A stretch of 64,000 nt of DNA from a bacterium (GTDB lineage: Bacteria; Actinomycetota; Acidimicrobiia; Acidimicrobiales; Bin134): NCBI GenBank assembly GCA_026705465.1, contig JAPPAP010000039.1, positions 62,001 through 126,000 of the forward strand, in the 5' to 3' direction. Below the pieces are notes generated by a model, which worked only from the letters and a program-made list of their open reading frames with translations, did not search any database and was not told the DNA's origin. This document shows, in pieces, positions 1,836 to 11,294 of this stretch (positions are counted from its first letter, which is position 1; each line of letters begins with the position of its first letter). The translations under genes were made by a program, and so were the position numbers.

Positions 1836-4559
1836 ATGGCTTCGGCAGACCATTTGGACCAAATCGACTCGGCGCTTCGCAACGACATCAGGCGGCTGGG
1901 CAACCAACTTGGCGATGCCCTGGTACGCCAGCACGGTCCTGAGTTGCTCGAGCGTGTGGAGCAGGTGCGGACCATGGCCCGGGGCCTGCGGCGCGACGAG
2001 GAGTCGGGCGCGGCGCTGGCAGAGGTGCTCGACGATGTGGATGTGGTGGAGGCCATCCGCCTGGTAAGGGCATTCACGGTCTACTTTCACCTGGCCAACA
2101 CCGCCGAGCAGGTCCACCGCATCGAGGATCTCAACGCCGGTGGACTTGCCGGCAGCCTCCGCTTTGCTGACACGGTGGCCAAGCTCCAAGACCTTGGTAT
2201 CGACCGGGCTGAGATCGTGGCCGCCACCCGAGGTGCCGACCTCCGACCGGTGTTCACTGCTCATCCCACCGAGGCCTCCCGCCGGTCGATACTCGACAAG
2301 CTCAACGAGATCGCCGTGCTCATCGAGCGCCGAAGCGAGGCCAGCAGCGGGCCGGCCGACCGGAATCGAGTCGATCGCCGCATCGATGAGCTCATCGATG
2401 CCATCTGGCAGACCGACGAGCTTCGCCGAGAGCGGCCCGATCCCGTTGACGAGGCCCGCTCCATCCTCTACTTCCTCACCGAGATCGCGGCCGACGGGGT
2501 TCCCGAGCTGTTCGACGACGTCGATGCTGTGCTGCGAAGCATCGGTGGGTCGCTGGACGGGCCCCAGGTACCGGTCCGCTTCGGGTCGTGGGTGGGCGGC
2601 GATCGTGATGGCAACCCCAATGTCACCCCCGAGACGACGCTGGAAGTGCTGAACTTTCAGCAGGGGCGGGCGCTGCGCCTGCTGGTGGCCGAGGTCGAGG
2701 AGTTGTCGTCGGAACTATCGGTTAGCACCGCCGTTACCGCCATCACCCCTGAATTGCAGGCCCAAATCGAAGCCGACCGGGATGACTTTCCCGACGTGGT
2801 ATCCCGATTCAGCAAGCTGAGCGCGGGCGAGCCCTACCGGCAGCGCTGTTCGGTGATCCACCAGCGCCTCTTGGAAGCCACCGCTCAGCCTCCCGGCCCG
2901 AGGGCTTATGGGTCGCCCGCCGACATGGAGGCCGACCTGGCCGTCATGGCCCGATCGCTCGAGGTCAACGGGGGATCGCTGATGGCAAGCGGCCGTCTGG
3001 CCCGCGTCCGACGCATCCTGGCCATGATCGGCTTCCACCTCGCCATCCTCGACATCCGTGAGAATGCCGCCGCCCACCACCATGCCCTTGGTGTGCTCTT
3101 TGCCGAACTGGGCATCGACTACCGCTCGCTGGCCCGCTCGGAGCGCACCGCGCTGTTGGCCGCCGAGCTTGACAGCCGTCGCCCACTGGCTCCCCCCGGG
3201 AGGTCGAGTGCCCAGGGCTCGCTGGCTCTGTTCGCGGCCCTGCGATTAGCCCTCGACCGCCACGGCGACGGCGTCATCGAGAGCTACATCGTCTCCATGA
3301 CCCAGGGCGTGGACGATGTGCTCGCCCCCGCGGTGCTGGCCCGCGAGGTCGGCTTGGTGGACATACCCGGGGGCGTCGCCCGAATGGGCTTCGTGCCGCT
3401 ATTTGAAACCATCGACGATCTCCGAGGAATCGGGCCCATGCTCCGGGAGCTATTCGCCGTTCCTGCCTACCGTCAACTGGTGCAGCTCAGGGGCGACCGG
3501 CAAGAGGTGATGGTCGGATATTCCGACTCCAACAAAGACGGCGGCATAACCACCTCGCAGTGGGAGATCCACAAGGCGCTACGGGAGATCGCCGAAGTCT
3601 CGGCGGAGACCGGCATCCAAGTCGTGGTGTTCCACGGCCGGGGCGGCACGGTAGGGCGAGGCGGCGGCCCAACGAATGCCGCCATCTTGTCGCAACCAGC
3701 CGGGGTGGTGGCCGGAGCGATGAAGATCACCGAGCAGGGCGAGGTGATCGCCGACAAGTATGGATTGCCCCGACTGGCTCAGCGCAACCTGGATCTGGCC
3801 CTGTCGGCGGTGCTGGAGGCCACGGTCGCCCATCAGAGCCCCCGCCACGGCGATGGTGGCATCGACGCCTGGAACGACATCATGGAAATCATGTCGACGG
3901 AGGCCCATCAGGCGTACCGCAGACTGCTGGATGCCCCTGGTTTTGTGGAGTACTTCCAAACCTCGACCCCCGTAGAAGAGCTGACCGCCATGAACATCGG
4001 CTCGCGCCCAGCCCGTCGCTTGGGGTCGAAGGCTGGTATCGATGATCTCAGAGCCATCCCCTGGGTCTTCGGGTGGACCCAGTCGCGCCAGATCATTCCC
4101 GGTTGGTTTGGGGTGGGCACCGCGCTCGAGGCGGCCCACCGAGCGGATTGCGGCGAACTGCTTCCGGCAATGTACGAAGGCTGGCAGTTCTTCCGCACAT
4201 TCATCTCCAACGTGGAGATGACCCTGGCGAAGACCGATCTGGCCATCGCTGGCCACTATGTCAATCGCCTCGTCGTCCCCGAACTCCATCACTTCTTCGC
4301 CGCCATCGCCGAAGAGCACGACCTCACGGTGGCTCACATCGCGAAGCTGACCGGCGGCGATCTGCTCAACGATCTTCCGGTGCTCAAGAGGACCCTGGCC
4401 GTTCGTGATGCTTATCTCGATCCCATAAGCGTGTTGCAGGTAGAACTCCTGGCTCGATCGCGGGCCGGGGTTGATTCCCCCGAATACGCCAGACGCATTC
4501 AGCGAGCCCTGCTGCTTACCGTGAACGGCATCGCCGCCGGACTTAGAAATACTGGCTAG
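1836..4559 (+). CDS. ppc: Phosphoenolpyruvate carboxylase
   Basis: Adds bicarbonate to phosphoenolpyruvate to give oxaloacetate and phosphate, refilling the TCA cycle (cytosolic, Mg2+-dependent homotetramer in the family). The 907-residue length is normal for bacterial Ppc. The catalytic His lies in 'FTAHPTEASRR' (His143), and the second signature 'VMVGYSDSNKDGG' and the glycine loop 'FHGRGGTVGRGGGP' are intact. The C-terminal 'GIAAGLRNTG' is the usual conserved tail. The ATG at 1836 lacks a clear Shine-Dalgarno; a TAGAAT hexamer at 1815-1820 could be the -10 of a short-leader transcript. It stands alone, with its own promoter region between 1657 and 1835. Confidence 0.97.
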   Translation: MASADHLDQIDSALRNDIRRLGNQLGDALVRQHGPELLERVEQVRTMARGLRRDEESGAALAEVLDDVDVVEAIRLVRAFTVYFHLANTAEQVHRIEDLNAGGLAGSLRFADTVAKLQDLGIDRAEIVAATRGADLRPVFTAHPTEASRRSILDKLNEIAVLIERRSEASSGPADRNRVDRRIDELIDAIWQTDELRRERPDPVDEARSILYFLTEIAADGVPELFDDVDAVLRSIGGSLDGPQVPVRFGSWVGGDRDGNPNVTPETTLEVLNFQQGRALRLLVAEVEELSSELSVSTAVTAITPELQAQIEADRDDFPDVVSRFSKLSAGEPYRQRCSVIHQRLLEATAQPPGPRAYGSPADMEADLAVMARSLEVNGGSLMASGRLARVRRILAMIGFHLAILDIRENAAAHHHALGVLFAELGIDYRSLARSERTALLAAELDSRRPLAPPGRSSAQGSLALFAALRLALDRHGDGVIESYIVSMTQGVDDVLAPAVLAREVGLVDIPGGVARMGFVPLFETIDDLRGIGPMLRELFAVPAYRQLVQLRGDRQEVMVGYSDSNKDGGITTSQWEIHKALREIAEVSAETGIQVVVFHGRGGTVGRGGGPTNAAILSQPAGVVAGAMKITEQGEVIADKYGLPRLAQRNLDLALSAVLEATVAHQSPRHGDGGIDAWNDIMEIMSTEAHQAYRRLLDAPGFVEYFQTSTPVEELTAMNIGSRPARRLGSKAGIDDLRAIPWVFGWTQSRQIIPGWFGVGTALEAAHRADCGELLPAMYEGWQFFRTFISNVEMTLAKTDLAIAGHYVNRLVVPELHHFFAAIAEEHDLTVAHIAKLTGGDLLNDLPVLKRTLAVRDAYLDPISVLQVELLARSRAGVDSPEYARRIQRALLLTVNGIAAGLRNTG

Positions 4560-4698
4560 GGAATCCCAGAAATCAACTGGCTCGACCTCAAGGTGGCATC
4601 GGGTTTGGTTGACGAGGAGTGGGGAGCAGCCCAAATGAAATTGTGGCAACTACTACTAGCGTGTCTCTTTTGTGAGTATTGCGGCCATAGGCTAGAAC

Positions 4699-7062
4699 TT
4701 GAGGGTGAGCGATGTGAGTGCCACGAATGAGGCTGCCGTGCTAAAGGAGCGACTCTCGCAGCTATCTGAAGCATTCATGCGCATTAGCGAGAGCCTTGAC
4801 TTTGACACAGTGTTGCAGGAGACACTGGACAGCGCCCGGTCGCTCACCGGTGCTCAAGTTGGCGTGATTGTGCTGGTTACCGACCAGCAGAGGACCGCGG
4901 AGTTCTTGTTCTCCGGCATGACGCCCGAACAGGCTGGCGAACTTGAGCAGCTGTCCAACAAATGGGAGCTCTTCGAGCACTTCTACGGCATTGAAGAACC
5001 ACTACGGCTGGACGGCTTCCAGAGCTACCTCAAAGAGCGCGAACTCTCTGAGTTCCGCGCCCCTTTTCCGATTAGCCCGGCCACGGCCTATCTGGGGGCG
5101 CCAATCCGGTACCAAGATCAGCGGGTCGGTGCCATCTTCATGGCCGAGAAGGAGGAGGGGTTTTCTGTCGAAGACGAGGAAACCCTGGTCATGTTCGCTT
5201 CCCAAGCGGCACTGGCCATTTCCAATGCTCGTCAGTATCGGCAGGAGCAGCGGACGAGGGCCGACATGGAAGCCCTAGTCAATATCGCCCCTATGGCTGT
5301 CCTGGTCTTTGAAGCCAAGACGGGGGAGCTGAGATCGGTCAACCGGGAGGCGATGCGGATCATTGGTGACTTGGGCCTGACGGGCGACTCCCTGCACCAG
5401 ATAGTCAGCGCCGCGACTTATCGGCGCGCCGATGGTCGGGTGATCTCGAAGGATGGGATTCCCCTGGAACAAACGATGAATTCGGGGGAGACCGTTTGGG
5501 AAGAGGAGATCATCATCGAGTACCCCAATGGCCAGGAATTTGTTGCCAGTGTGAACGCCACCCCCATTCGCGGCGCCGACGGTTCGGTGGAGTCGGTGAT
5601 CGTGACGGCGCAGGACTTGGCCCCCCTCGCTGAGTTGGAGCGGCTGCGTACCGAGTTCTTGGGCATCGTCGGACACGAGCTCCGCTCGCCGCTCACCGCC
5701 ATCAAGGGGTCCACTTCCACGCTGCTGGAGGGCCAGTTCTCACTCGACCCCGCTGAGATGATCGAGTACCACCGCATCATCGACGAGCAAGCCGATTACA
5801 TGCGCGATCTGATCAACAACCTCACCGACATTGTGCGAATTGAGTCGGGAACGCTGGCGGTCAATCCGGTGCCCCTCGAGCTGGCTCGATTGGTGGATGA
5901 GGCCCGCAATGTTTTCTTGAGCACTGGGGGCCGGGAGCACATCCGAATCGATCTCCCCTCTGACTTGCCCTTGGTGATGGCCGATCAGCGGCGCATGGTC
6001 CAGGTGTTCATCAACCTTCTCACCAACGCGGCGCGCAACTCCAACGAAAATTCAACAATCAGCTTGGAGGCCCGGGTCCAAGACGTCCACGTCGCCGTCT
6101 CGGTGGCCGACACCGGCCGAGGCATTCCGGCCGAGCGGTTACCGCACCTGTTTGCCAAGTTCTATCAGCCGGATGGCCCCGACCAGAATCGTGATCTCGG
6201 GCTGGGCTTGGCCATCTGCAAGGGGATCGTGGAGGCGCACGGCGGGCGTATTTGGGCTGAGAGCGACGGCCCCGGCCTGGGCAGCACATTTACGTTCACC
6301 CTTCCTGTTTCTGAGCAGAGCACACCCCACGTCACCCCTCAAAGAACCAGAGCCGCGGCTCGGCCTCGAAGGACGGTTAGCAGCGAGCTGACCCGGATCC
6401 TCGCCGTGGACGACGATCCGAGGACGCTCAAGCACGTTCGTGACTCGTTGGCCAAGGCAGGATTCGAGCCGGTGGTGACTGGCGACCCTGACGAGGTGGT
6501 CTCGTTGATCGAGGAGACCGAACCCCAAGTGGTGCTCCTTGATCTGATGCTGCCCGGCAAAGACGGCATTGAACTGATGAAGGATGTGCTCGCCATTTCC
6601 GATGTACCGGTCATATTTCTGTCGGGCTACGACCAGGATGAGCTGATCACCAAGGCCTTCGAGATGGGCGCGGTCGACTACATAGTCAAGCCTTTCTCGC
6701 CCACCGAGTTGAACGCACGGGTTCGAGCTGCGTTGCGCAAAAGGCCAGATCAGCCGATGTCCTTCGAGTTGGACGACCTGACGATCAACTTCTCTGAGCG
6801 ATCCGTGACCGTCGCCGGAGAGGTGGTCGAGTTGACACCCACCGAATTCCGGCTGCTGGCCGAGCTATCTGCGAAAGCTGGCACGGCAATGGACCACGAC
6901 TACCTGCTGCAACGGGTGTGGGGTCCCGACCAACCGGGCGATGCTCGCCGGATGCGCACCGTGGTCAAGAACCTCCGGCAGAAGCTCGGAGATAATGCCC
7001 GCAACCCCCGCTATATCGTCACGGTGCCCCACGTTGGCTACCGCATGCCGAAGCCTACGTAG
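4699..7062 (+). CDS. Single-chain hybrid: GAF-PAS histidine kinase fused to a response regulator with OmpR-type DNA-binding domain
   Basis: A complete two-component pathway appears to be in one 787-residue polypeptide. Order: short helical N-terminus; GAF sensor (about 30-180); PAS-like domain (about 190-305); HisKA with H-box 'GIVGHELRSPL' (His326); HATPase with N box 'LLTNAARNS', 'DTGRGIP' and 'GLGLAI' (to about 540); basic linker; receiver domain (about 566-680) with acidic triad 'VDDD', phospho-acceptor Asp615 in 'LLDLMLPG' and Lys664 in 'IVKPFSP'; winged helix (about 690-785) with 'LTPTEFRLLAEL' and 'VGYRMPKP'. It has no membrane segment, so it senses a cytosolic or diffusible signal. 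The closest known layout is KdpD-like kinase plus KdpE-like regulator joined in frame. The start may be TTG 4699, GTG 4705 or GTG 4714. It ends 3 bases before the convergent Fe-S gene. Confidence 0.9.
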   Translation: MRVSDVSATNEAAVLKERLSQLSEAFMRISESLDFDTVLQETLDSARSLTGAQVGVIVLVTDQQRTAEFLFSGMTPEQAGELEQLSNKWELFEHFYGIEEPLRLDGFQSYLKERELSEFRAPFPISPATAYLGAPIRYQDQRVGAIFMAEKEEGFSVEDEETLVMFASQAALAISNARQYRQEQRTRADMEALVNIAPMAVLVFEAKTGELRSVNREAMRIIGDLGLTGDSLHQIVSAATYRRADGRVISKDGIPLEQTMNSGETVWEEEIIIEYPNGQEFVASVNATPIRGADGSVESVIVTAQDLAPLAELERLRTEFLGIVGHELRSPLTAIKGSTSTLLEGQFSLDPAEMIEYHRIIDEQADYMRDLINNLTDIVRIESGTLAVNPVPLELARLVDEARNVFLSTGGREHIRIDLPSDLPLVMADQRRMVQVFINLLTNAARNSNENSTISLEARVQDVHVAVSVADTGRGIPAERLPHLFAKFYQPDGPDQNRDLGLGLAICKGIVEAHGGRIWAESDGPGLGSTFTFTLPVSEQSTPHVTPQRTRAAARPRRTVSSELTRILAVDDDPRTLKHVRDSLAKAGFEPVVTGDPDEVVSLIEETEPQVVLLDLMLPGKDGIELMKDVLAISDVPVIFLSGYDQDELITKAFEMGAVDYIVKPFSPTELNARVRAALRKRPDQPMSFELDDLTINFSERSVTVAGEVVELTPTEFRLLAELSAKAGTAMDHDYLLQRVWGPDQPGDARRMRTVVKNLRQKLGDNARNPRYIVTVPHVGYRMPKPT

Positions 7063-7065
7063 CGG

Positions 7066-9741
7066 TTAGTCGTTTTCTTCGCGCTCCGCGATAAGGGCGG
7101 CGGCCTGGGTGGGCCACTTCCACTTGCTGATTCGACCGGGGATTTCCAGGGCAGCCTCAAGGTTGCGCACGCCGTCGTCGTCGAGGCCGGCCAAATCCTC
7201 ATAGGTGACAATGCCGTGTTCAGGCAACGCCCTGGCCAGCGCGGGGTCGGTGCCCTTGATGCGGGTGAAGTCGTCCGGGCGCTGCGTCGGTGCTGAAGAC
7301 GGGGTGTCCACGGGGGGTGGTGCCGTTGCTTCCGGCTCAGTCTCTGGGGCAGCAGGAGCCGCAGCTTCGGGAACCTTGGTCTCTGGCTCAGCTTCGGGAG
7401 TTGCCGATTCTTTGGGCGCGGATGCTTCGGTCTGCGGCTCCGGTTCAGCTTCCGGCGGGGCCTCCACGGCTACCGCAGCATGCGGCTCTTGCACCTCGAC
7501 CGCCACGGCTTCGGGGGCGGGGGTGCGGATGGTGAGCAGGTCGGACTGTCGGGCGGCGTCTTGGGCGGCGTCGCGGTTCTCCAATGCCTCCAGCAGGTGC
7601 ATGGAGATGTCGCCCACCACCACGTCGTCATCGGCCCCCTCGGCCTTGATGCCGTCGTCGATCATGATGTAGCAGAACGGGCAGGCGGTGGCGATGCGGT
7701 CGGCCCCGGTGGCCAGCAGCTCCTGCGAGCGCTCCACGTTGACCTGTTTGCCGATGGTCTCCTCCATCCACATGCGAGCACCGCCAGCCCCGCAGCACAT
7801 TCCCTTGGTTCCGTTGCGCTCGGCCTCCACCACCTCGACGCCGCCCAGCGATCCCACCACTCGGCGGGGGGCCAGGTACACGTCGTTGTGGCGGCCCAGA
7901 TAGCAGGAGTCGTGGTATACGACCCGCTCGTCCAGGCGGGCACCGGTCATGTCGAGGCGTCCATCGTCGATCAGCGCTTCGAGGAACTGGGTGTGGTGGA
8001 CCACCTCATAGTGACCGCCGAGCTGGGGATACTCGTTGGCCAACGTGTTGAAGCAGTGGGGGCACTGAGTGACGATCTTCTTGACCCCCATTTCATTGAG
8101 GGTCTCGATGTTCTGCATGGCCAGCATCTGGAAGATGTACTCGTTGCCCGAGCGCCGGGCCGGATCGCCGGTGCAGTTCTCGGCCGGTCCCAATATGGAG
8201 AAGCTGATCCCAGCCCGTTGGAGCAGCTTGGCTACCGCCCGGGTGACCTTGCGGTTCTTATCGTCGAAAGATCCGGCACAGCCCACCCAGTAGAGGTACT
8301 CGGACTCCAGAGGGTCGCCCCCGTCGAGTACGGAGATGCCCTCAAACTCCTCTGCCCACGCCCCTCGATCGCCCTGGGACATGCCCCACGGGTTCCCCGA
8401 GTTCTCCATCGACCGGTAGGCCTGGCCCAACTCGGTGGGGAAGTCGGACTCCATCAGCGACAGGTAGCGGCGCATGTCGAGGATCTTGTCGAGAATCTCG
8501 ATGTTCACCGGGCAGATCTCATCGCACGCCTTGCAGGAGGTACACGCCCAGACTTCCTCGCCGGTGATCCGCTCGAATAACGAGTTGGCCTCTACTTTGA
8601 TCTCCGGAACCGCGCCCAGTGGCGGGGTGGTGGCCGGCTCGCCGGTGGCGGCCATGACCTCGCCGGTCTTGAGCACGATCTCCCGGGGGTCGAGCGGCTT
8701 GCCGGTGGCATGGGCCGGGCATACCGACGTACACCGCCCGCACATGGTGCAGGCATCGGTGTCCAGCAGTTGCTTCCAGGTGAAGTCCTCCACGGTGGCG
8801 GCGCCGAACGACTCCAGGTCGGTCTCCATCAGGTTGGGCATGGGCTTCATGGCGCCCTTGGGCCGGTCTTTGTCCCGCAGGTACATATTCAGCGGGGAGG
8901 TGAACATGTGGCGCAGCATGGTGATGGGTAACAGCACCAAGAAGGCCACAAACGCGATCACGTGGCCGGCCCACCAGATCTGATGCCAGTGGTCCAGGCC
9001 TTCGAGGCCCCGCATCTGGGTGGCCACCTGATAGCCGAGCACCGACCACTTCTCGTAGTCGGGCACCCCGTGGTTGGCGATGCGGAAGACTTCGGCGCCG
9101 AACCCGGTGACGCCGATGGCGAAGAAGGTGCCCAAGATCACCGCGTGTTCAGGCCGCGATTTGATGCGGATGCGATAGGGGCGCAGCCGCCGGGGGCCGT
9201 AGCGGCGGACGATGGCCCACATCACGCCGACCAGGAAGATGGCTCCGGCGATGTCGCCCACCGCCGAGTACACCTGGTACACCCGGCCGTGGAGGAACTT
9301 GGCCCCGTCAGGGAGTTGCTCGTCGATCTCCAGGGTGGTGGTGACGCCCAACAAAATGATGAACCCGACGTAGATCATGGTGTGCATGACGCCAGCGCCG
9401 GGCTCCCGCAGCAGGGTGCGCATGTACATGCCCCGTCGGAGGTCCTCGAGGCGGGTCTTAGCGTTGGCCAGAGTGGTGCGGCGGTTGTCAGGGCCGCCCC
9501 GTTCCCAGTTCTTCACCCGCTTGGCGAATTCCCAGGATGCCCACACCAGGAAGATGGGGATGATGGTGTAGAAGGCAGCCTTCCACCCGCTGGGGATGTT
9601 CTCCCAGGGGTGGCGGGTGATCTCAGCCGGGTTCTTGAATTCGGTGATAGCGGAGGCGATGCCTGAGGCAATGGTGAAGGCGGCGAAGCCCAGCCCGAGG
9701 CCGAGGACAATGTGGAAGGGACGCAGGCGCTTTGGGTCCAT
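7066..9741 (-). CDS. Membrane-bound Fe-S oxidoreductase (heterodisulfide reductase / nitrate reductase gamma-like) with C-terminal helix-hairpin-helix domain
   Basis: The 891-residue protein starts with about six membrane helices (residues 1-290) resembling the haem-binding gamma subunit of nitrate reductases. Next come two 4Fe-4S motifs, 'CTMCGRCTSVCP' and 'CTSCKACDEICP', and two CCG domains of HdrB/GlpC type ('WVGCAGS', 'QCPHCFNTL', 'HDSCYLGRHN', 'GMCCGAGGARM', 'ACPFCYIM'). It resembles the mycobacterial iron-sulphur reductase Rv0338c and probably passes electrons between a soluble donor and the quinone pool; the partner is unknown. After the catalytic part there is a Pro/Ala/Glu-rich linker (about 720-820) and a C-terminal helix-hairpin-helix-like domain ('RIKGTDPALARALPEHGI'), usual in nucleic-acid or scaffold proteins and rare here. 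Monocistronic, divergent from amt. Confidence 0.88.
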   Translation of the reverse strand: MDPKRLRPFHIVLGLGLGFAAFTIASGIASAITEFKNPAEITRHPWENIPSGWKAAFYTIIPIFLVWASWEFAKRVKNWERGGPDNRRTTLANAKTRLEDLRRGMYMRTLLREPGAGVMHTMIYVGFIILLGVTTTLEIDEQLPDGAKFLHGRVYQVYSAVGDIAGAIFLVGVMWAIVRRYGPRRLRPYRIRIKSRPEHAVILGTFFAIGVTGFGAEVFRIANHGVPDYEKWSVLGYQVATQMRGLEGLDHWHQIWWAGHVIAFVAFLVLLPITMLRHMFTSPLNMYLRDKDRPKGAMKPMPNLMETDLESFGAATVEDFTWKQLLDTDACTMCGRCTSVCPAHATGKPLDPREIVLKTGEVMAATGEPATTPPLGAVPEIKVEANSLFERITGEEVWACTSCKACDEICPVNIEILDKILDMRRYLSLMESDFPTELGQAYRSMENSGNPWGMSQGDRGAWAEEFEGISVLDGGDPLESEYLYWVGCAGSFDDKNRKVTRAVAKLLQRAGISFSILGPAENCTGDPARRSGNEYIFQMLAMQNIETLNEMGVKKIVTQCPHCFNTLANEYPQLGGHYEVVHHTQFLEALIDDGRLDMTGARLDERVVYHDSCYLGRHNDVYLAPRRVVGSLGGVEVVEAERNGTKGMCCGAGGARMWMEETIGKQVNVERSQELLATGADRIATACPFCYIMIDDGIKAEGADDDVVVGDISMHLLEALENRDAAQDAARQSDLLTIRTPAPEAVAVEVQEPHAAVAVEAPPEAEPEPQTEASAPKESATPEAEPETKVPEAAAPAAPETEPEATAPPPVDTPSSAPTQRPDDFTRIKGTDPALARALPEHGIVTYEDLAGLDDDGVRNLEAALEIPGRISKWKWPTQAAALIAEREEND

Positions 9742-9929: not shown

Positions 9930-11294
9930 ATGAAAAGGAAATTCGGAATAGGAGCGCTGATTGCCGCCGTAACGGTGCTGATCGGGGCCGTTCCCGCAGC
10001 AGCCCAAGAAGGCGGCGCCGAGGCCGTGCAAGTGGTGTTGGACAACCTGTGGGTGTTCATCGCCGGCATCTTGGTGTTCTTGATGCAGGCCGGTTTCGGC
10101 ATGGTCGAGGCCGGGATGACCCGGGCCAAGAACGTCGGGAACATCATGGCCAAGAACCTGGCCGACATGTGCATCGGCGCGCTGGCCTTCTTCGCATTCG
10201 GCTACGGCATCGCCTTCGGCACTGACGGCGGGTCGCTTATCGGCACCGACGGCTTCTTCTTGAGCGGTACGTTCACTACATTCGGTGACGGGCTCAGCAC
10301 TCCCACCTTCTTTTTCTTCCAGGTGGTGTTCGCGGCCACCGCGGTGACCATCGCCTCGGGCGCCATGGCCGAGCGGACCAAGTTCACCGCCTATCTGGTG
10401 TTCAGCTTCTTCATGACCGCGCTGATCTACCCGGTGGTTGTCCACTCCTTCTGGCATGGTGACGGCCTGCTCTCCGATCTGAAGATCGGCGACGCCCGGT
10501 TCGGCGATTTCGCCGGTTCCACCATCGTGCACAGCACCGGCGGCTGGGCTGCTCTGATGGGGGCCATTTTCCTCGGGCCCCGCATCGGCAAGTACGACGA
10601 GAACGGCAACCCTCGGGCCATGCCCGGCCACAACATCGCCTTCGTGGTGCTGGGCGTGTTCATCCTGTGGTTCGGGTGGTTCGGGTTCAACCCCGGCTCG
10701 GAGCTGGCGGCAGATGATTTCGTGATGCGAGCGGCGGTCACCACGCTGTTGGCCGCGGCTGCTGGAGGCGTTGCTGCTGGGACGATCATCTGGCGCAAGG
10801 CCGGCTCCCTGGACGTGGCCATGACCGGCAACGGTGTGCTGGCCGGGTTGGTTGGCATCACCGCCGGTACCGGCACCATGAACCCATTGGGCGCAGTGGT
10901 GACCGGCGCCATCGCCGGCGTCATCGTGGTGTACTCGGTGCTGTTCTTCGACCGGGTCCGCATCGACGACCCGGTAGGTGCCATCTCGGTCCACGGTGTT
11001 TGCGGCGTGTGGGGGACCCTGGCCGTGGGCCTGTTCTCCCGCTATGACGATGCATTCGTCGGCCAGGACAACGCTGGCCTCTTCTACGGCGGAGGCATCG
11101 ACCAGCTGGTTGTGCAGCTCATCGGCGTGGTGCTGGTATTCGTGTGGGTGACGGTCACCACCGGCATCTTGTTCGCGGTGATGAAGAAGACCATGGGTCT
11201 ACGGGTGTCTCGTGAGGAAGAGATCGGCGGTCTCGACCTCCATGAACATGGAGTGCCGGGCTACGGCCCTGACACCTCCGTATCTGTGGGGTGA
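9930..11294 (+). CDS. amt: Ammonium transporter (Amt family)
   Basis: Conducts ammonium across the cytoplasmic membrane as a trimer of 11-helix subunits. The ATG at 9930 is preferred over upstream starts because AAGGAGGG sits at 9912-9919 and the first 26 residues form a signal peptide ('LIAAVTVLIGAVPAAAQ'), common in Amt proteins. Family marks include 'MQAGFGMVEAGMTRAKN', 'DFAGSTIVHSTGG' with the pore His, 'WFGWFGFNPGS' and 'ISVHGVCGVWGTLAVGLF' with the second pore His. The protein has 454 residues, normal for the family. No glnK/PII gene follows, unlike the common amt-glnK pair. The end is close to the convergent gpmA. Confidence 0.96.
   Translation: MKRKFGIGALIAAVTVLIGAVPAAAQEGGAEAVQVVLDNLWVFIAGILVFLMQAGFGMVEAGMTRAKNVGNIMAKNLADMCIGALAFFAFGYGIAFGTDGGSLIGTDGFFLSGTFTTFGDGLSTPTFFFFQVVFAATAVTIASGAMAERTKFTAYLVFSFFMTALIYPVVVHSFWHGDGLLSDLKIGDARFGDFAGSTIVHSTGGWAALMGAIFLGPRIGKYDENGNPRAMPGHNIAFVVLGVFILWFGWFGFNPGSELAADDFVMRAAVTTLLAAAAGGVAAGTIIWRKAGSLDVAMTGNGVLAGLVGITAGTGTMNPLGAVVTGAIAGVIVVYSVLFFDRVRIDDPVGAISVHGVCGVWGTLAVGLFSRYDDAFVGQDNAGLFYGGGIDQLVVQLIGVVLVFVWVTVTTGILFAVMKKTMGLRVSREEEIGGLDLHEHGVPGYGPDTSVSVG

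Follow-up and report, generated by a model that had tools for sequence, protein, structure and literature searches.

Does the stretch 4699-7062 of the window (here, the whole analysed stretch of 64,000 nucleotides from a bacterial contig) encode a real protein that senses a signal, passes phosphate and binds DNA by itself, and if so, how unusual is it? A first-pass annotation had proposed an in-frame fusion of a GAF-PAS-HisKA-HATPase kinase with a response regulator. The stretch is a single open frame of 787 codons with zero stops, and a Pfam search detects all six domains above the curated cut-offs and in the proposed order. On the forward strand, and with residues counted from TTG 4699, these are a DevS/DosS-like GAF domain (4795-5220, residues 33-174), a PAS domain (5299-5619, residues 201-307), the HisKA dimerisation and phosphoacceptor domain (5647-5850, residues 317-384), the HATPase_c catalytic domain (5983-6312, residues 429-538), a receiver (Response_reg; 6397-6726, residues 567-676) and an OmpR/PhoB-type winged-helix DNA-binding domain (Trans_reg_C; 6817-7047, residues 707-783). 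One chain therefore carries what defines a hybrid histidine kinase of the HisKA class, i.e. HisKA with its His, the N and G boxes of the HATPase and a receiver, as well as the succession of receiver and Trans_reg_C winged helix that defines the OmpR/PhoB family. Both phosphoacceptors, as claimed, are in place: His326 (codon 5674-5676) lies within GHELRSP and Asp615 (codon 6541-6543) within LLDLMLPG, and they are kept in 73/78 and 70/78 family members, respectively. Lys664 lies within VKPF, and the winged helix is likewise intact.

The protein also appears to be soluble, as had been assumed. No stretch has membrane-like hydropathy (the highest 19-residue mean, 1.41, falls in a receiver strand), and an AlphaFold model shows six folded domains joined by disordered linkers, with no membrane helix (mean pLDDT 82.7); being a monomer model with a modest pTM of 0.53, it does not fix the arrangement of the domains. 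The linker between kinase and receiver (6313-6390, forward strand) measures about 23-34 residues and the one between receiver and winged helix 12-27 residues. Nowhere in the protein is conservation lower than in the former, as would be expected of a tether.

Translation probably starts at GTG 4705, giving a gene at 4705-7062 on the forward strand, and not at the previously assumed TTG 4699, which is the longest possible start. GTG 4705 is preferred because the sequence GTGAGCGA at the gene start, common to the window and the three orthologues nearest to it (G013, G008 and G019), is kept there behind a conserved upstream block. This block, CTTTTGTGAG (4667-4676, forward strand), is shared by the same four sequences and is a predicted candidate for a -35 region or a regulator site. 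It is followed by the -10-like TAGGCT (4688-4693, forward strand), which reads TAnnnT in all four, and the spacing from TAnnnT to GTG is 11 bases in the window and in the two orthologues checked by script. The transcript is probably leaderless or near-leaderless from GTG 4705. A motif GTGWCKC-TTTT-GTGAG is also kept upstream in the window and the closest orthologues. An 11-base direct repeat was considered as an autoregulatory operator and discarded; the repeat itself is weak and is absent upstream of the other members checked. Nor does composition give a clear signal of foreign origin: the G+C content of the gene is 60.5%, against 64-65% in its neighbours, and its GC3 is 0.757, where the window averages 0.773.

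Most of the sequences compared here come from metagenome bins, the one circumstance in favour of a sequencing or assembly fusion or of a misbinned contig. However, orthologues from the same genus (78-81% identical) possess the same uninterrupted architecture, which rules out a sequencing fusion of two genes, and seven more copies of 784-798 codons from other genomes of this genus align from end to end. The identical architecture recurs in several independent genomes, among them a chromosome-level Dehalococcoidia (SAR202) assembly with seven copies. The window contig itself carries genes for PEP carboxylase (PEPC), an ammonium transporter, phosphoglycerate mutase and DnaK, whose order is kept in related genomes. 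Hence, we regard an artefact as extremely improbable. The proposed actinobacterial origin stands as well: compared with the DnaK proteins of three MAGs named Acidimicrobiia, that of the window shows 71, 65 and 66% identity, versus 55-63% for MAGs of other phyla, which identifies the host as an acidimicrobiial actinobacterium.

From which known systems the single parts derive is less straightforward. The regulator part had been called OmpR/KdpE-like, of which the OmpR-type holds and the KdpE-specific part does not. It matches both MtrA and KdpE, with the best score for MtrA (174 bits vs 131 for KdpE); the family profile ranks them in the same order (213 and 194), and MtrA of Mycobacterium tuberculosis is also first among PDB matches and thus the nearest solved structure to this part. 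MtrA stands alone, its kinase being another protein, MtrB. The kinase core resembles HK853 both in its sequence (34% identity) and in its fold (TM up to 0.77 on the target). The best annotated matches to kinase plus regulator outside the family are adjacent kdpD-kdpE genes; yet the NCBIfam equivalog cut-offs for KdpD and KdpE are missed by far (132 and 131 bits vs 1123 and 325). An origin of the fusion from KdpDE was considered but is not favoured over others, since PnpS/PhoR together with MtrA/PhoB are equally near or nearer by single-domain scores, and only the joint matches point to KdpDE because kdpD precedes kdpE. Like the window protein, the KdpD-KdpE and PnpS/PhoR-PhoB pairs combine a HisKA-HATPase kinase with an OmpR-type regulator; unlike it, they are two proteins with a stop between them. 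Kinases of the KdpD and PhoR types sit in the membrane.

For the GAF domain, the only strong match among solved structures is the haem GAF of DevS/DosS (E 4e-12). By our own reckoning of its place in the DevS construct, the proximal haem ligand, His149, corresponds to Ile125 in the window. Across 71 members the common residues at this position are V, I, A, S and L, and His is not among them. Haem sensing in the manner of DevS was therefore dismissed. DevS itself is not known to carry a receiver or a DNA-binding domain fused to it.

Reading the domains together, we consider it likely that this cytoplasmic protein acts as a self-contained two-component transcription factor in which His-to-Asp transfer within the dimer controls DNA binding. 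The GAF-PAS pair would sense an internal or membrane-permeant cue and control the dimeric histidine kinase; His326 would become phosphorylated and then donate its phosphoryl group to Asp615, on a receiver tethered within the same dimer. The chemistry would be this single transfer and not a multi-step phosphorelay, as the term first used for it implied. Two receivers would then pair via the usual OmpR/PhoB face (alpha4-beta5-alpha5) and place two winged helices on DNA. Asp660, Tyr661, Glu670 and Arg674 are invariant across 71 members; Asp660, Glu670 and Arg674 correspond to PhoB D101, E111 and R115 of the alpha4-beta5-alpha5 dimer face, Tyr661 is the switch tyrosine of the receiver, and the equivalent of PhoB R91 is Ile. 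The invariance of the dimer-face residues speaks for receivers that pair in the way usual for OmpR-family regulators. On the other hand, tethered DNA-binding domains would always be close together in the kinase dimer, and dimerisation driven by phosphorylation may then not be the switch. In the hybrid two-component systems (HTCS) of Bacteroides, contact between receiver and DNA-binding domain blocks DNA binding until phosphorylation (PMC11253607). By analogy, a similar inhibitory brake is plausible in the window family. Phosphatase activity of HisKA kinases needs Thr or Asn at the residue H+4. This residue is Thr in 33/78 members, Ala in 32/78 and Ser in the window; being often neither Thr nor Asn, it suggests that dephosphorylation is possibly weak in many members.

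Could the receiver also trade phosphate with separate partners, making this an ordinary hybrid kinase and a node in a wider network? Many hybrid kinases do hand phosphate to separate proteins (PMC12471899), and the host genome encodes other kinases and regulators. But the receiver has a DNA-binding output of its own, the Pfam search finds no HPt domain in the protein, and no partner gene recurs beside the 86 family loci surveyed. Besides the family itself, the neighbours of these loci form two clusters only, of four loci each, in a survey with crude ORF picking. The lack of recurring neighbour genes is consistent with a self-sufficient unit, and we judge the wider network to be rather unlikely.

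The family also contains copies in which the chemistry is lost. In 11/78 members the phosphorylatable His or Asp is missing, so not every copy can depend on phosphate flow. Asn replaces Asp615 in six related members whose kinase His is kept; His326 is replaced by Tyr in two members (one of which also has Glu at the Asp615 position) and by Arg in another two. The six Asn-bearing members form a clade (L051, L053, L058, L059, L061 and L092) from MAGs named Acidimicrobiia and Chloroflexi, and one same-genus paralogue (L024, G013:C69) has lost both sites while its frame is full-length. Such copies are either decaying or have switched to a control independent of phosphate. Together with the scarcity of Thr at H+4, they lend some weight to the idea that DNA binding is mostly phosphate-independent, with GAF, PAS and kinase as a dimerising sensor frame and the winged helix steered by conformation. 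Against this, the window and most members retain the full catalytic set, and unused residues would drift; as a description of the window protein we hold this idea to be improbable, and His-to-Asp transfer within the dimer remains our preferred reading.

How rare is the architecture? The expectation of rarity proves right within Actinobacteria and wrong as far as an isolated oddity is concerned, because the gene belongs to a large family from several phyla. Among 396 genomes sampled across the phylum Actinomycetota, the full family was found in one, the window's own; a second candidate (G464, L134) was set aside, since a stop divides its kinase from its regulator. The family is present in 9/248 genomes of the window's order, one of which (G105) has copies identical in sequence and coordinates to those of L050, one of the three Acidimicrobiia MAGs of the DnaK comparison, and genomes of the same genus hold further members at 60, 50 and 40% identity. 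Outside the phylum, the family is common in a certain set of MAGs, those with the labels Chloroflexota (SAR202, Caldilineaceae), Acidobacteriota, Gemmatimonadota and Gammaproteobacteria; full-length members there show 44-54% identity and number up to ten per genome. Of the 18 named genomes searched, 17 contain members, one to ten each. Nothing that we found shows many actinobacteria with this architecture already characterised, and the openly available literature, which is not all literature, yielded no paper on this family or architecture in sponge symbionts. The search of viral contigs, phages and plasmids gave no full-length relative.

Isolate names such as RHO, COS, IRC and APA agree with the sponges studied by Robbins et al. 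2021 (PMC8163846), which suggests that the family hosts are marine sponge symbionts. Lateral transfer among sponge symbionts is reported in that study, whose main text makes no mention of histidine kinases. At least one relative, from a groundwater Chloroflexi genome (L088), lives elsewhere; it matches without the GAF part.

The surroundings of the gene and its phylogeny both bear on movement. In the window and in G013, the fusion gene lies between the PEPC gene (1836-4559, forward strand) and an iron-sulfur/CCG-domain oxidoreductase gene (7066-9741, reverse strand), which is present in 20/22 same-genus genomes; in G019 it adjoins the iron-sulfur gene at the end of a contig. In G014 and G006, two single-contig genomes of the genus, the same junction is empty and measures about 70-75 bases, while in G007 it holds a different gene that reads, by eye, like a DNA methyltransferase. 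The flanks of the fusion gene in the window are 4560-4698 and 7063-7065, and the comparison loci are L126, L127 and L129. The large oxidoreductase combines two CCG domains with nitrate-reductase-gamma and 4Fe-4S domains, and its C-terminal tail is weakly matched by ribosomal L21/S2 and NADH dehydrogenase subunit E extension models. Immediately after the fusion stop in G013 (L118, about 10710-10790) there appears to be a tandem near-copy, of some 36 bases, of the 3' end of the iron-sulfur gene, possibly an insertion scar. Most simply, the gene was probably gained at a variable junction, which is a possible hot spot for single-gene gains; loss of the gene from the genomes with an empty junction may be an alternative to gain.

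In a tree of 78 members, the window falls into a supported group of ten acidimicrobiial copies. Two others, L021 and L108, lie inside a SAR202 clade, and further ones lie in a group with Chloroflexi. A topology with all 18 acidimicrobiial rows as one clade is rejected (AU p 0.0005), a non-monophyly that supports transfer, in an uncounted number of events, though paralogy can likewise break a clade. Since the window clade and L021/L108 as one clade are not rejected (p 0.16), the number of separate arrivals is uncertain. Because the junction is empty in same-genus genomes and the acidimicrobiial copies are not monophyletic, the gene behaves as single-gene cargo.

Fusions with a DNA-binding output are already known, chiefly HTCS, and the window family is a soluble OmpR-type variant of these. 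In one census, hybrid kinases made up 22.8% of kinase genes (PMC3018481). The statement that DNA-binding hybrids are mainly AraC-type proteins of Bacteroidetes agrees with a study of the Bacteroides HTCS of the BT4124 and BT1754 type (PMC11253607). In these, as in the window family, a single chain runs from the sensor kinase through the receiver to the DNA-binding domain, and each genome has many paralogues; their tethering reportedly loosens partner specificity (PMC11253607). They differ in that their kinase is a glycan-responsive membrane protein with AraC-type output, whereas the window protein is soluble, has GAF-PAS input and Trans_reg_C in place of the AraC-type domain, and lacks recurrent neighbour genes. 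A fusion of PAS, kinase, receiver and winged helix in one 689-residue frame is also seen in a Ktedonobacterales MAG (L101, about 7398-9464), yet it belongs to a different subfamily: identity is about 35%, a GAF match is lacking, and Ser takes the place of the receiver Asp.

Tethering would remove the need for partner recognition, so that copies could duplicate, diverge and move singly without cross-talk. We tentatively propose, although the odds are somewhat against the full proposal, a mobile one-protein family that spread between phyla sharing sponges, with up to ten paralogues per genome, as a soluble OmpR-type counterpart of the HTCS expansion in which some lineages have become independent of phosphorylation. 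The family would offer a second, independent case in which to ask whether signalling proteins, once tethered, no longer depend on recognising partners and are therefore duplicated and transferred more readily. Empty and filled versions of one site in same-genus genomes make the gain directly comparable. If the link to the habitat is confirmed, the family would be a marker of regulatory exchange within a symbiont community of multiple phyla.
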